64,000 nt of DNA, taken from assembly GCA_014879945.1 (NCBI GenBank), contig JACSRE010000242.1, positions 1-64,000 on the forward strand, in the 5' to 3' direction. The number at the start of each line of letters is the position of its first letter. Position 1 is the stretch's first letter. This document shows, one piece after another, positions 14,179 through 41,895 of this stretch. This DNA comes from Myxococcus sp. Lineage in GTDB: Bacteria; Myxococcota; Myxococcia; Myxococcales; Myxococcaceae. The position numbers and the translations under genes are program-made. The notes beneath the pieces were generated by a model. It saw only the letters and a list, made by a program, of their open reading frames with translations. It had not been told where the DNA came from and made no database searches.

Positions 14179-15750
14179 TCAGTCGGCGGCTTCGGGGAGC
14201 AGCAGGTGAAACGCAGTGCCGTCGGGGCCGGTCTCGAACTCCATCCACCCGCCCATCTCTTCGACGATCTCTTTGCAGATCGACAGGCCCAGGCCGGTGC
14301 CCTTGCCGACCTCCTTCGTCGTGTAGAAGGCGTCCCACATGCGCCGCTGCACGTCGACGGGAATGCCGGTGCCGTGATCGCGCACGGTGATGCGCAGGCG
14401 ATCGGTCTCGGCGACCGCGCGCACCTCGAGCTTGCGGTGCTTGCGCTCGAGGCCGCTCATCGCATCGAGCCCGTTCTGCATCAGGTTCAGGACGACCTGC
14501 CCGAGCGCTGACGGAGAGCCGATGACCTCGGGCAGGAGCGGAATGAGGGCGACGATCTCGCACTCGCTCTTCTTGGCGCCCTTGAAGATGGTGAGCGCCT
14601 CTTGAATGGCGCGCGAGCAGTCGAACCTGATCTTCTCGTCGCGGCGGCGCGCGGTGCCCTTGAGGGCCTGGACGATGGTCTCGATGCGCGAGACCCCCTC
14701 GATCGACTCGGTGACGATGTCTTCGATCTCGGCGGCCGAGGGCGGCAGGGGGGCCTGGCTCTCGCGCAGGTCGGCGATCTCGGACTTCAGGGAGTGGAGG
14801 TTGGACTTGAGGAACGCCAGCGGGTTGTTGATCTCATGCGCGACGCCGGCGACCAGCTGGCCGATGGTGGCGAGGCGATCTCGTTGGGTGGCCACCTCGA
14901 GGGCGCGCGCGGCCGAGGCCTCGATCACCGCGACGTCGGTCACCGCGCCGATGGCGTCCGCCAGCCCCTGGATCAACCGGATCGAGCCCTCGTTCAGCAT
15001 CGACGCGGGGGCCGAGACGCACAAGAGGCCGCGGGGCTGCCGGGCACCGGTGGGGAGGATCAGCACCGAGGCGCTCTCTTCACACTCGAACGGGAGTTTG
15101 AGCGTCGAGCGGCTCAGCTCAGGCACGTGGAGCTGCCGGCATTGATTCCAGGCGACCTGCAGGAGGCAGTCTCGTCGGCCGAGCGGAACGATGAGCGCCG
15201 CTTCGTCGGCCGAGACGCCTCCGGCGCCCTCACAGCGGAACTCGTTGGTGGCGAACTCGAAGTTGGCGATGCGTGAGAGTGGCAGCTGTTCGCGCACCAC
15301 GTTGATGGCTCGGGTCAACGCCTCACGCTTGGAGCCAGACGAGGCCATCGCCTGAATCACCGCCCGCAGCACCGACGCCTCGGCCCTCGCGCGCTCGAGG
15401 CGTCGTCGATCGAAGCTGACGATCCACCCCGCCTCGCCGCGGTCGGGCGCCACCGTCACCACCACGCGCTCGGCGTGCGAGATGTCCACGCAGGTCTGCA
15501 CACACCCCGTCTGACTACGGGCCTCGTCGAGCGCAGTCTGCATGGCGTCTTTGAGCGCCACGCCGCAGGGCTGGGTCAGCAGGTCCTGGGCGAGCTGGTT
15601 GAGCACCAGCACGTCGCCGGCCTCGTCGAGCCAGGCCAGCGCGACCGGCAGGCCGTCGGCGAAGGCACGAAAGGCCTCTCCCCGCTTGGGGGGCGCGACG
15701 GAGCGAATGACTGCGGGCTGTGCCATCTGAGCGCCGAAGCGGTGCAACAT
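14179..15750 (-). CDS. Sensor histidine kinase with PAS/GAF-type input (soluble)
   Basis: 523 residues, no transmembrane helices. A PAS-like segment lies near residues 30-130 and a GAF-like segment near 140-280. The phospho-acceptor is His305 in VAHEINNPLAFLK. The ATPase domain has the N box LNLMQNGLDAM and G boxes ending GKGTGLGLSICKEIV, all intact. The first ATG (15750) gives MLHRFGAQMAQP; a second ATG at 15728 is also possible. No receiver-domain partner is encoded beside it. It is divergent from the flagellar sigma-54 activator across 249 bases, the arrangement expected of an FlgS/FleS-type flagellar kinase, but that activator has no receiver domain. The link is inference. Confidence 0.88.
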   Translation of the reverse strand: MLHRFGAQMAQPAVIRSVAPPKRGEAFRAFADGLPVALAWLDEAGDVLVLNQLAQDLLTQPCGVALKDAMQTALDEARSQTGCVQTCVDISHAERVVVTVAPDRGEAGWIVSFDRRRLERARAEASVLRAVIQAMASSGSKREALTRAINVVREQLPLSRIANFEFATNEFRCEGAGGVSADEAALIVPLGRRDCLLQVAWNQCRQLHVPELSRSTLKLPFECEESASVLILPTGARQPRGLLCVSAPASMLNEGSIRLIQGLADAIGAVTDVAVIEASAARALEVATQRDRLATIGQLVAGVAHEINNPLAFLKSNLHSLKSEIADLRESQAPLPPSAAEIEDIVTESIEGVSRIETIVQALKGTARRRDEKIRFDCSRAIQEALTIFKGAKKSECEIVALIPLLPEVIGSPSALGQVVLNLMQNGLDAMSGLERKHRKLEVRAVAETDRLRITVRDHGTGIPVDVQRRMWDAFYTTKEVGKGTGLGLSICKEIVEEMGGWMEFETGPDGTAFHLLLPEAAD

Positions 15751-15999
15751 CGCGACCGCGCGGGAGGTGAGTCAGGTGCCCTGGGTCTGGGTCCAGGCGA
15801 ACCCGCTTCACAACCGGCTGATTCACCTCTGCGGGGGCCAAAGTCGGGGGAGCGCCGAGTCTGGGCCGACTCTCGTCAGCGCGCTGGCGCGTCAGCCCAG
15901 TGACTCGGAATCGTTGGTTTGTTGGCGGTGGCAAGCGGGTTGCTCTTGCCCCCCCCCGAACCGGCGTACCCACGCCGCACCCCAGGGAGGGGACGTTTC
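15751..15999. other. Divergent intergenic region between kinase and flagellar activator
   Basis: 249 bases with no credible gene. It holds the sigma-54 promoter at 15929-15944, a C-rich run (15949-15957) and a Shine-Dalgarno sequence (agggagggg, 15984-15992) for the activator. I see no clear enhancer palindrome and no clear promoter for the kinase. Confidence 0.6.
15929..15944 (+). promoter_or_regulatory. Sigma-54 (RpoN) promoter of the flagellar operon
   Basis: TGGCAAGCGGGTTGCT matches the -24/-12 consensus (TGGCAc-N5-TTGCw) with the obligatory 10 bases between the GG and GC pairs. Predicted initiation is near 15956, leaving a leader of about 45 bases to the ATG at 16000. The product of that gene is itself a sigma-54 activator, so the operon may be autoregulated. 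Confidence 0.75.
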
Positions 16000-17163
16000 A
16001 TGAACCTCGCATTCACCACCACCGCTACGGTCCAGGTGCCCAGCTCGACCCCTCTCGTTCACGCGCCCGGCTCCCCGCTGGAAGAGGTGATCAAGGCGGT
16101 CAGCCGCATCGCGCCGACCGACTCGACGGTGATGCTGACGGGCGAGACGGGCACGGGCAAAGAGGTGGTGGCCCGCTTCGTTCACGAGAACAGCCCGCGC
16201 ACCAGCCGCCACTTCGTGCCGGTCAACTGCGGCGCCATTCCCGAGACGCTGCTCGAGAGCGAGCTGTTCGGTCACGTGCGTGGCGCCTTCACGGGCGCGG
16301 TGGCCAACCGAAAGGGCCGCGTGGCGATGGCGGAAGGCGGCACCCTCTTCCTCGACGAGATCGGCGAGATGCCCCTTGCGCTGCAGGTCAAGCTGCTGCG
16401 CCTGCTGCAGGAGCGCACCTACGAGCCCGTGGGCAGCGCCGAGAGCGTGTCGGCCAACTTCCGGCTGATCGCGGCCACCAACCGCAACCTCGCGGCCGAG
16501 GTCGAGGCCGGGCGGTTCCGCCGCGATCTCTACTACCGCCTCATGGTGTGCCCGGTGGAGCTCCCGCCCCTGCGCGCCCGCAAGGCCGACATCCTCGCCC
16601 TCTTCAGCCACTTCTGGCACCAGCGCGGCGAGACCCGGGCCATCGAGAGCCAGGCGCTCAAGGCCATCGAGCTGCACCCCTGGCCGGGCAACGTGCGCGA
16701 GCTCGAGAACCTGGTGGAGCGCGTCTCGGTCTGCACCGAGGGCCCGGTCATTCGCGTGACCGACCTGCCCGCGCCGGTGCGCCAGGCCGCCATGCAGGTG
16801 CACGAGCTGGCGTCGCCCTCGCTGGCGCTGGTGCCGCAGCCGCCTCCTTCGGCGCCGGTCGACGTCTACGCGCACACCGGCTTCCCGACACCCGCGGCGA
16901 CCCCGCCGGGCTTCGAGCCGCTCCCGTCGGAGGCGCCCGCGCTGCAGCTGCCGACGCCCGAGGCGCTGCTGGCCGACGCCGCCGCACCGAAGCTGCCGAT
17001 CGATCTGCCCGCGCTGCTGCGAACGCTCGAAGACGCCTACATCGCGGCGGCGCTCCAGCAGGCCGGCGGCAACCGGAAGGCCGCGGCCGACCTGTTGGGG
17101 CTGCAGCGCACCACCCTGGTCGAGAAGCTCCGCCGCCGCGCGCGTGACTCGCAGGCCGCCTGA
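16000..17163 (+). CDS. Sigma-54-dependent flagellar activator without receiver domain (FlgR/FlrC type)
   Basis: 387 residues. The ATG at 16000 follows agggagggg at good spacing. After only about 25 residues the AAA+ domain begins: Walker A GETGTGKE (48-55), the sigma-54-contacting GAFTGA loop (95-100), Walker B LFLDE (116-120) and [12 protein letters not shown] Pro/Ala-rich linker (about 265-335) leads to a C-terminal Fis-type helix-turn-helix (about 340-383, [17 protein letters not shown]). It should bind enhancer DNA and open sigma-54 promoters of flagellar genes. An NtrC-type receiver domain is absent, so the neighbouring kinase cannot control it by the usual Asp phosphorylation. It is the first gene of the flagellar operon. 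Confidence 0.9.
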
Positions 17164-17203
17164 CCTCTCGACTCCCCCACCCTCACCCGGAGGCAACGAA
17201 CCG

Positions 17204-18523
17204 ATGGTCTTCGCGCTGGTCAGCATCGCCCTTGGCGCCCCGCCGCCCACGGGGTTCACCACCTCGGTCGAGCGCATCGCGCTCGAGCGGACCGCGGCGC
17301 GCGTCGAGGCCACGGTGAACCCGGTGGTGCGGACGATCGTGCTGACGGGCGCGAAGCTGGCGCCGCGCGCCGAGAGCCAGCTGTGCCCGGAGCAACTCAA
17401 GCGCTCCGGCTCGTTCACCCTGCGCTGCTCCACGCGCCGGCTGTGGGCGGCGGTGGCGGAAGACGAGAAGGGCCTGTACCTCGACGTTCGCGCGCTCCGC
17501 GGCGTCACCTGGACGTGGGATGGCCAGGTGATCCCCCTGCAGCAGTGGCCCTTCGACGGGGTGGCGATTCCCCAGACCTGCCCGGGCACCATCGACGTCG
17601 TCCGGGCCGAGTGCGCGCTGGGCGAAGGCCGCTTCGAAGACGCCGAGCGCCTCTTCACCGCCGCGCTCGACTCGCCCGACGCCCACCTCGCGCGCCTTCG
17701 CCTGGGCGACCTCACGCTGCGGCGCGGGAACCCCGAGGGCGCGCTGGCCCTCTACGCGAAGTCCGCGGCGACCGGGCCGGTGAGCCGGCTGGCGAAGCTG
17801 CGCGAGTGTGATCTGACCGGCAACTGCCTCACCGAGAAGCCGGCGACCCTCGACGGGCTGCACCCCGCCCTCGCGATGGAAGGCCGACTCCACCTCATCC
17901 GCCAGGACCTCGCCGTCAATCGCGACCGCGAAGCCATGCAGCAGCTGGTGGCCGAGGTCGAGGCGGGCAGGCCGGTGTGCACGACCTCGCGGGTGTTCTG
18001 TCAGCAGGCGGTGCAGACCGCGCTGGAGTCGGGTGACGACGTGGCGGCCACCATGGCGCTGTCGGTGTTCGCCCAGGCCGCCTTGTCCGATGGGCCCTGG
18101 GGCGTCGAGGTCGCGAAGGCCGCGGCCACCGAGGCGGAGCGCGCTGGCGCGCCGGCCTACGCCGCCGCCGTGCTGGCCTCGCTCTCGGGGCGCCTGCCCA
18201 ACGACGAGCTCGACCAACACCTGCAGCGCGTGGCGCGGCTGTACCTGGCAGCCCGCGACCCGGTGCGGGCGCAGTTCGTCGTGGAGTACGCGGAGCAGAG
18301 GCTGCCGGGGGCCGCCCTCAGGAGCGCGTCGTGGCAGCAGCTGCGGCGGCTGGTCGAACCCAGGAGCCCACGCGCTCCGAAGAAGCAGGAGCCGAGCGCT
18401 CCGCCCCTCGCCGAGCGCCTGCCCGCGCTCTCAGAAGACGTCGCCATCAGCAGCGAGCTGGCCCACGCCGCCCGCCTGCGCGCAGTCGCCGCTCAACCGC
18501 CCCCGCCCGGAGTCCAGCCGTGA
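17204..18523 (+). CDS. TPR-like protein between two sigma-54 activators
   Basis: 439 residues. I chose the ATG at 17204, which follows cccggaggcaac, over an in-frame start at 17144 that would overlap the activator. MVFALVSIALGAPPP could be a short signal sequence, but its charge is atypical. Residues about 130-330 form helix pairs (ECALGEGRFEDAERLFTAAL, GDLTLRRGNPEGALALYAK) typical of TPR-like repeats; the tail is Pro-rich. No known flagellar protein is recognised. It sits 40 bases after the first activator and overlaps the second by 4 bases, so it is co-translated with the regulators and could sense assembly state or hold one of them; that is a guess. Confidence 0.75.
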   Translation: MVFALVSIALGAPPPTGFTTSVERIALERTAARVEATVNPVVRTIVLTGAKLAPRAESQLCPEQLKRSGSFTLRCSTRRLWAAVAEDEKGLYLDVRALRGVTWTWDGQVIPLQQWPFDGVAIPQTCPGTIDVVRAECALGEGRFEDAERLFTAALDSPDAHLARLRLGDLTLRRGNPEGALALYAKSAATGPVSRLAKLRECDLTGNCLTEKPATLDGLHPALAMEGRLHLIRQDLAVNRDREAMQQLVAEVEAGRPVCTTSRVFCQQAVQTALESGDDVAATMALSVFAQAALSDGPWGVEVAKAAATEAERAGAPAYAAAVLASLSGRLPNDELDQHLQRVARLYLAARDPVRAQFVVEYAEQRLPGAALRSASWQQLRRLVEPRSPRAPKKQEPSAPPLAERLPALSEDVAISSELAHAARLRAVAAQPPPPGVQP

Positions 18524-19398
18524 ACGATCTCATCTCGCAGAGCCGCGCCATGCAGGAGGCGCTCGCCTCGGCCCTCGACGTCGCGCCCAGCCCGACGACG
18601 GTGCTGATTCGCGGCGACCACGGCACCGGAAAGCGCCGCTTCGCCCGCTTCATTCACGACAACTCGAAGGCCGCCGCGAAGCCCTTCGTCGAGGTGAACC
18701 CCACCACCTTCTCGCCCGCCGAGGTGGAGCGCGCCCTGGGGTCGGCCGGCACGGTGATGTTCGACGAGATCGGCGCCCTCTCGCACGAGCACCAGGCCCA
18801 CCTGCTGCGCCTGCTGGAGCAGCCCCACGCCGCGCGCATCGTCGCCAGCACCAGCGAGGCGCCCGAGGAGCTGGTGCGGCTGGGCCGCCTGCGCAGCGAC
18901 CTCTTCTACCGCCTCGACGTGTACCCGCTGCGCGTGCCCTCGCTCAAAGAGCGCCGCGACGACGTCGGCCGCCTCGCGCAGGTGCTCCTGCTGAAGGCCG
19001 CCGCGCGCCTTGGCCGGCCCGCGCCGACGCTGAGCCCCGCCGCCACGATCGCCCTCGAGCAGGGCGACTTTCCCGGCAACGTGCGAGAGCTCGAGAACGT
19101 GCTCGAGCGCGCGCTCATTCGCACGCGCACCTCGACCATCGAGGCCCCGTCCCTGGCTTTGGCGCCGCCGCGCCTCGAGGCCGGGCTGTTCCCCGAGGGC
19201 CTGCCGCTCGAGCTGGCCGAACTCGAGCGGGTGGCGATCGCCGAGGCCCTCCGCCGGGTCAACGGCAACCGCACCCACGCCGCGCGGCTGCTCGGAATCG
19301 GTCTGCGCACCCTTCGCCAGAAGCTCAACGGCCCGGGCGCCCGCCCTGGCTCCTCCACCCCCGAGCCGGCCGCCGAACCGGTGCAGGAGCTGTCATGA
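18520..19398 (+). CDS. AAA+ Fis-type regulator lacking the GAFTGA loop
   Basis: 292 residues, GTG start overlapping the previous stop (GTGA). Walker A GDHGTGKR (32-39) and Walker B TVMFDEIG (78-85) are intact, as are the LRSDLFYRLDVYPLRVPSL segment, [11 protein letters not shown] and a C-terminal Fis helix-turn-helix (GNRTHAARLLGIGLRTLRQ). The distance from the Walker A Lys to the Walker B Asp is 44 residues, against 65 in the 16000 protein; the missing 21 residues are exactly the GAFTGA segment. It should still bind DNA and ATP but not contact sigma-54, so it may be an antagonist, a hetero-oligomer partner or a sigma-70-type regulator. The stop overlaps the flgB ATG. Confidence 0.88.
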   Translation: MNDLISQSRAMQEALASALDVAPSPTTVLIRGDHGTGKRRFARFIHDNSKAAAKPFVEVNPTTFSPAEVERALGSAGTVMFDEIGALSHEHQAHLLRLLEQPHAARIVASTSEAPEELVRLGRLRSDLFYRLDVYPLRVPSLKERRDDVGRLAQVLLLKAAARLGRPAPTLSPAATIALEQGDFPGNVRELENVLERALIRTRTSTIEAPSLALAPPRLEAGLFPEGLPLELAELERVAIAEALRRVNGNRTHAARLLGIGLRTLRQKLNGPGARPGSSTPEPAAEPVQELS

Positions 19399-19820
19399 AG
19401 CTCTTCGACACGACGCTCGACCGTCTTCAGGCCTCGCTCGACGTTCGCCTCGCGCGCCAGAACGTGCTGGGCGGCAACCTCTCGAACGCCGACACGCCCG
19501 GCTACCAGTCGCGAGAGCTCGACTTCAACGCGGCCATGAAGGCCCGGGTCGCCGCGGCCCCCGGGAGCACGCCCTCGCTCCCGTCGGCGCCGCGCGTCGA
19601 AGGGCACCTGTCGGTCGAGGCGCCGGGCGCCGACGTGAGCGCGCCGGAGCGCTTCGTCACGGTGGCCGAGGGCCAGGGCGGCCTCGACGGCAACGGCGTG
19701 GATCTCGATCGAACGATGGTCGAGCTCTCGCGAAACGCGCTGCTGTACGGGGCCAGCACCCGCAGCGCCGGCAAGAAGCTCGCGATCCTCCGCTACGTCG
19801 CGAGTGACGGCATCGGCTGA
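19395..19820 (+). CDS. flgB: Flagellar proximal rod protein FlgB
   Basis: 141 residues. FlgB forms part of the proximal rod, between the MS ring and the distal rod. The N-terminal rod motif LARQNVLGGNLSNADTPGYQ (about 19-38) and the C-terminal D0 helix (VDLDRTMVELSRNALLYGAST) are present. Length is typical of the family. The ATG overlaps the stop of the upstream regulator (ATGA), which ties the regulator and structural genes into one operon. Confidence 0.97.
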   Translation: MKLFDTTLDRLQASLDVRLARQNVLGGNLSNADTPGYQSRELDFNAAMKARVAAAPGSTPSLPSAPRVEGHLSVEAPGADVSAPERFVTVAEGQGGLDGNGVDLDRTMVELSRNALLYGASTRSAGKKLAILRYVASDGIG

Positions 19821-41844: not shown

Positions 41845-41895
41845 GCCCCGCGCCATCGAGGGCCGGGCATGAGCTGCCCTTCTGTGGGCGCCGGC

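Follow-up and report, generated by a model that had tools for sequence, protein, structure and literature searches.

What role is left to a sigma54 activator once it has lost the loop with which it contacts sigma54? The question is raised by a gene at positions 18520–19398 (+) of the window, i.e. the whole 64-kb stretch of DNA that was analysed. The gene has a GTG start and encodes a bEBP-like AAA+ protein of 292 residues with a Fis-type helix-turn-helix (HTH) and without a GAFTGA loop, referred to here as LL. Automatic annotation would label LL as a sigma54 activator, which is very probably wrong. The case touches on two points that are open in the field and are usually probed with engineered PspF, namely the number of working L1 loops needed per bEBP ring and the occurrence of natural mixed-subunit rings.

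The flagellar locus and the anatomy of LL

LL is part of a flagellar locus that also encodes a full bEBP with GAFTGA (16000–17163, +), presumed to be its partner and an activator, referred to here as ACT. Between the two lies the gene for a TPR-repeat protein (17144–18523, +), whose position is conserved, and a histidine kinase gene (14179–15750, −), a syntenic neighbour, is divergent from ACT. LL overlaps its neighbours at both ends: its start codon and the TPR stop share GTGA, and its stop codon and the ATG of flgB (19395–19820, +) share ATGA. A first-pass annotation of this DNA had described LL as fused to flgB by overlapping codons; the overlap of stop and start exists, but two proteins are made and there is no fusion. 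In contigs reaching far enough, the gene order is kinase / ACT / TPR / LL / flgB-flgC-fliE-fliF-fliG-fliH-fliI. LL precedes flgB wherever the flanks can be read, ACT and the TPR gene stand ahead of LL where the contig extends that far, and GAFTGA is kept in the complete copies of ACT that were aligned. The divergent histidine kinase is conserved in the locus, yet a receiver domain is absent from both ACT and LL. The TPR protein occupies the same place in all groups and is fast-evolving (dN/dS 0.33–0.62).

From the Walker A lysine (K38) to the Walker B aspartate (D82), LL counts 44 residues, versus 65 in ACT (K54 to D119), as had been stated from the sequence at the outset. In the alignment, the 21 residues that LL lacks coincide exactly with the L1/GAFTGA segment, between L73 and G74 (scar at 18737–18741, +), which agrees with the earlier view that the sigma54-contacting loop is what was lost. 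The description of this loop as cleanly deleted was correct for L1 but overlooked a second gap, in which 12 residues of L2/pre-sensor I are missing between E100 and Q101 (scar at 18818–18822, +); the distance from the Walker B Asp to the arginine finger is 43 residues in LL versus 55 in ACT. From the start of Walker A to the end of Walker B, 72–74 residues were counted in 49 of 49 bEBP matches from other genomes of many phyla (the loci checked among 80 kept by one contig scan), and since all of them fall within this range, the span of 52 residues in LL is far outside chance. The match of LL to PF00158 (Sigma54_activat; E 3.4e-25, 89.1 bits) is split into two stretches, breaking at profile positions 67/93; no such break is seen in the remaining full-length matches to this profile in the same genome.

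Walker A, Walker B, the sensor region and the HTH had all been called intact in the first-pass annotation. This applies to Walker A (GDHGTGK, 18613–18633, +), Walker B (VMFDE, 18754–18768, +) and the HTH (19225–19329, +), but not to the sensor I region (RIVASTS, 18835–18855, +), in which the consensus Asn is a Ser. In addition to the Walker A Lys and the Walker B Asp and Glu, LL has the arginine fingers (RSDLFYR, 18892–18912, +) and the sensor II Arg (GNVR, 19075–19086, +); the strand with the glutamate-switch Asn, N60 in LL, is at 18685–18717 (+). No N-terminal receiver domain was found in LL, which begins at the AAA+ domain and has no such Pfam match. An orthologue search with alignment of the Walker A–B interval, as the first-pass annotation had suggested, found the GAFTGA-bearing L1 absent from LL and from all 11 loop-less orthologues aligned, and L2 likewise absent from all 11. 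Because the loop is absent, LL should be unable to remodel sigma54 holoenzyme by the known mechanism, as judged from the biochemistry of PspF (PMC2745333, PMC4132715); the anatomy argues strongly that such remodelling is ruled out, as had been proposed.

The AlphaFold model of LL has a mean pLDDT of 89.3, with most of the core above 90. FlrC is among the closest structures (Z 25.6, 1.9 Å over 214 residues), tied with others within 1 Z unit. The top-scoring NCBIfam model for LL is the FlbD equivalog, with 161.8 bits and hence far under its cut-off of 750. LL also matches PF14532 (Sigma54_activ_2; 60.8 bits against a curated cut-off of 25) over profile positions 3–138 of 138, corresponding to residues 7–142. 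This family comprises short sigma54-activator-like AAA domains, e.g. the E. coli domain 3n70, which aligns with LL over 133 of 137 residues. The resemblance is likely convergent, because LL scores higher with PF00158 than with PF14532 and derives from loop-bearing flagellar homologues.

Distribution, origin and selection

A search with an LL profile identified the protein in 12 of 195 genomes of the phylum, belonging to four genera of one family; all 12 match at E ≤ ~1e-125, and the next best match is at 1e-86. The group is taken to be Myxococcota, judging in part by kinase models of Myxococcus type. The alignment covers eleven copies and leaves out the twelfth (G002), which is cut by an in-frame TAG. 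Positional homologues that bear both GAFTGA and L2 occur in six genomes of two sister families. Orthologues with GAFTGA, which the first-pass annotation had named as evidence that would count against it, were found in these two families alone, where the loop-bearing form is the ancestral one. Other flagellated relatives have ACT and the TPR gene, with nothing in the place of LL. No loop-less relatives were seen elsewhere among the 49 checked bEBP loci, and the search of the 195 genomes returned the same 12.

In a tree computed without the loop columns, LL and the loop-bearing proteins form a clade with a support of 100, LL is monophyletic (100), and it is placed away from ACT and the other bEBPs of its own genome. 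Synteny and tree support thus identify LL as orthologous to the loop-bearing flagellar bEBP upstream of flgB, which we infer to be FlrC-like. Independent losses are rejected, since LL forms a single clade. On this comparison of sequences, both loops are shown to have been lost once, on one branch, in the ancestor of the four genera, from an ordinary activator. The tree therefore makes the loop-less form a derived state of single origin and not an error. A fault of sequencing or assembly, which the first-pass annotation had kept in view, has a negligible probability and can be ruled out, as the same two in-frame deletions are found in 11 aligned orthologues from separately assembled genomes.

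Two loci of the same genus deviate from this pattern. In G002 (L032, G002:C139), the in-frame TAG in the LL orthologue is located near residue 171 and may be either a genuine nonsense mutation or an artefact of assembly. In L040 (G006:C39), the flagellar locus is divergent and has no LL, and its FliF is 53% identical versus 76–88% in congeners, which suggests that the flagellar cluster of G006 was replaced or transferred.

Values of dN/dS for LL are 0.16–0.35 by NG86, with dS probably understated at this GC content, and are similar to those for ACT and flgB; judged by these rates, the gene is shown to be under selection. The Walker A Lys, the Walker B Asp, both arginine fingers and the sensor II Arg are invariant in the 11 orthologues, and a single copy has Asp for the Walker B Glu. 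Seven of the 11 have Ser or Ala instead of the switch Asn, and ten no longer have the sensor I Asn. Mean identities follow the same division: they are 0.34 in LL versus 0.94 in the loop-bearing homologues for the switch-Asn strand, 0.42 versus 0.89 around the L2 scar and 0.54 versus 0.81 for sensor I; for the arginine-finger segment they are 0.83 versus 0.72, for sensor II 0.86 in both, and for the HTH 0.86 versus 0.82. Pairwise, the HTH is 78–93% identical among loop-less proteins and 76–88% identical to loop-bearing ones (pairs compared). The AAA core evolves faster in LL than in the loop-bearing homologues. Arginine fingers act on the ATP site of the neighbouring subunit, and their retention while the cis-catalytic parts drift is therefore what would be expected of a pseudo-subunit in a mixed ring. 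In PspF, ATPase activity depends on L2, which exerts its effect chiefly via L1 (PMC2745333), and the Glu108–Asn64 switch is linked to L1 (PMC4132715); the parts lost from LL therefore make up one functional module.

Sigma54 promoters and candidate binding sites

The best-scoring sigma54-type −24/−12 element in the window (TGGCAAG-N4-TTGCT, 15928–15944, +) is located about 56 bp before the start codon of ACT and is conserved. Upstream of this promoter lies a FleQ-like palindrome, GTCAGCCCAGTGAC (15891–15904, +), with the form GTCA-N6-TGAC in nine of nine loop-less loci; this form resembles a proposed FleQ consensus that is itself disputed (PMC6120874). RpoN is present in all five genomes tested.

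The flgF operon is on the same contig at 80 kb, outside the window (promoter G000:C206:80705). Its sigma54 element was found in seven of seven loop-less genomes, in all loop-bearing ones and in all but one of the gene-absent genomes tested. At its −12 position, CTGC instead of TTGC is seen in all seven loop-less genomes and in no loop-bearing or gene-absent genome with the site; the change may have accompanied the loss of the loops.

A candidate box, GGCAGnnnnTGCCcGGC, is situated 54–68 bp upstream of the flgF −24 element in the loop-less genomes G000 and G021 and in the loop-bearing G054. Among loop-less genomes it scores 13/13 in G000 and 12/13 in the other six. Of the six loop-bearing genomes, only two have a strong box (G054, 13/13; G078, 11/13), and four gene-absent relatives have 8–10/13. 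The score of 11/13 in G039 and G055 is non-significant or borderline, on P values that are indicative only, since the motif was picked after inspection. In its extended 19-base form, the box has two occurrences genome-wide in G000. These observations lend indirect support to sigma54 promoters at ACT and flgF, and to the possibility that LL still binds the class III flagellar enhancer at the putative flgF box. Because flgF keeps both the −24/−12 element and the candidate box, they also point to LL acting with ACT at a sigma54 class III promoter, rather than having switched to other promoters, the alternative that the first-pass annotation had set, with TyrR as its example, beside a poisoning of hexamers.

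A further perfect match to the flgF box is found at 41862–41878 (−), between fliA and a glycine C-acetyltransferase gene; it was rejected as an LL site, because no promoter accompanies it and its inverted repeat may form a terminator hairpin. Nor is it claimed that the loop-less clade gained FleQ-like boxes at flgF: three of the seven loop-less genomes have exact ones, and so do G078 and G027.

Possible roles of LL and known relatives

LL probably serves either to help or to restrain the intact activator encoded next to it. The reading preferred here, which we put at somewhat less than an even chance, is that LL works together with ACT at class III flagellar promoters, as a pseudo-subunit that targets DNA and does not remodel. 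On this view LL goes back to a flagellar sigma54 activator of the second tier (FlrC/FlbD type); its remodelling module, made up of L1 and L2, was lost a single time, the switch Asn and that of sensor I drifted afterwards, and LL retained the binding of DNA and of nucleotide together with the arginines that act between subunits. Made from the same sigma54 operon as ACT, LL would co-assemble with it as a pseudo-ATPase subunit. Its HTH would bring the mixed assembly to flgF and other class III promoters, or position it there, with the GAFTGA loops coming from ACT. Because the arginine fingers of LL are retained, we infer an LL–ACT hetero-oligomer; its effect on transcription is presumed to be positive. 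A strict division of labour within this hetero-oligomer, with ATP-driven sigma54 remodelling by ACT, and with LL as an evolved pseudo-ATPase contributing only promoter targeting and arginine fingers, is proposed more tentatively still. The kept arginine fingers and Walker A could alternatively serve LL homo-oligomers. ACT alone can presumably serve class III, because gene-absent relatives still have a sigma54 promoter at flgF.

Against a mixed ring, it has been found that PspF is poisoned when L1-dead subunits alternate with wild-type ones, such rings activating inefficiently (PMC4132715). A mixed ACT/LL ring could therefore be inactive, which makes an attenuating role nearly as likely as the preferred one. 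LL would then bind the class III enhancer box or mix into ACT rings and lower sigma54-dependent flagellar transcription, so that the first flagellar operon would carry its own negative feedback. Such a role, which we consider possible if rather doubtful, would be in keeping with the related Caulobacter FlbD, which also represses an early flagellar promoter (PMC3930126), with the rank of FlbD as best-scoring NCBIfam model in spite of its low score, and with the place of LL directly behind ACT and the TPR gene. It fits less well with a candidate box at an enhancer-like distance instead of over the promoter, and a pure DNA-binding blocker would have no need of invariant arginine fingers and sensor II.

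It is unlikely that LL acts without remodelling on sigma70- or sigma28-type promoters, in the manner of R. capsulatus NtrC, TyrR and VpsR. Regulation of sigma70 promoters has indeed been reported or proposed for bEBPs without a working GAFTGA (PMC3162934, PMC10274813), but the sole candidate site of LL adjoins a promoter that remains sigma54-like, and a limited search identified no sigma70 target. It is very improbable that LL is a decaying, non-functional remnant of a second activator. The gene is missing altogether from flagellated relatives, one copy (G002) carries the in-frame TAG, and the AAA core evolves comparatively fast; however, dN/dS is well under 1, like that of flgB, and the HTH, arginine fingers and reading frame are preserved across four genera. 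By dN/dS and motif retention, a pseudogene is rejected for the clade and is possible for G002 alone.

Among known systems, FlrC of Vibrio cholerae, a class III flagellar sigma54 activator, resembles LL in its AAA+ core and would hold the same place in a two-tier hierarchy. FlrC has L1, L2 and a receiver domain; LL has none of them. FleQ and FleT of Cereibacter (Rhodobacter) sphaeroides are likewise two bEBPs without a receiver domain; the operon that encodes FleT also contains fli genes and is controlled by FleQ, and class III promoters are attributed to the pair (PMC7277832, PMC11999139, PMC9542535). As in that system, the flagellar locus studied here holds two bEBPs, one of which (ACT) has a full remodelling domain. 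FleT has no DNA-binding domain, whereas LL keeps this domain and is without the remodelling loops, so that its putative pairing with ACT would be a mirror image. GAFTGA is lost or altered in TyrR, DhaR, HupR, VpsR and the NtrC proteins of R. capsulatus and Caulobacter, which share an AAA+ domain plus HTH with LL, and in YplP (PMC3162934, PMC10274813). Caulobacter NtrC has lost eight L1 residues (PMC10274813), compared with 21 of L1 plus 12 of L2 in LL; unlike GAFTGA-less bEBPs such as this NtrC, LL lacks an N-terminal regulatory domain.

That GAFTGA can be lost or changed is thus already known, as are short PF14532 domains of a similar kind. New, as far as found, are a flagellar case of a GAFTGA-less bEBP, apparently the joint removal of L1 and L2, together with a series of outgroups showing where the loss occurred, and a selection pattern that may point to a pseudo-subunit. 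In this case the mutant has been supplied by evolution itself, and relatives with the loops, without them and without the gene form a natural series at a single conserved flagellar locus. The arginine fingers, sensor II and the HTH stay while L1, L2, the switch Asn and sensor I decay as a unit, which fits the finding for PspF that L2 works through L1.
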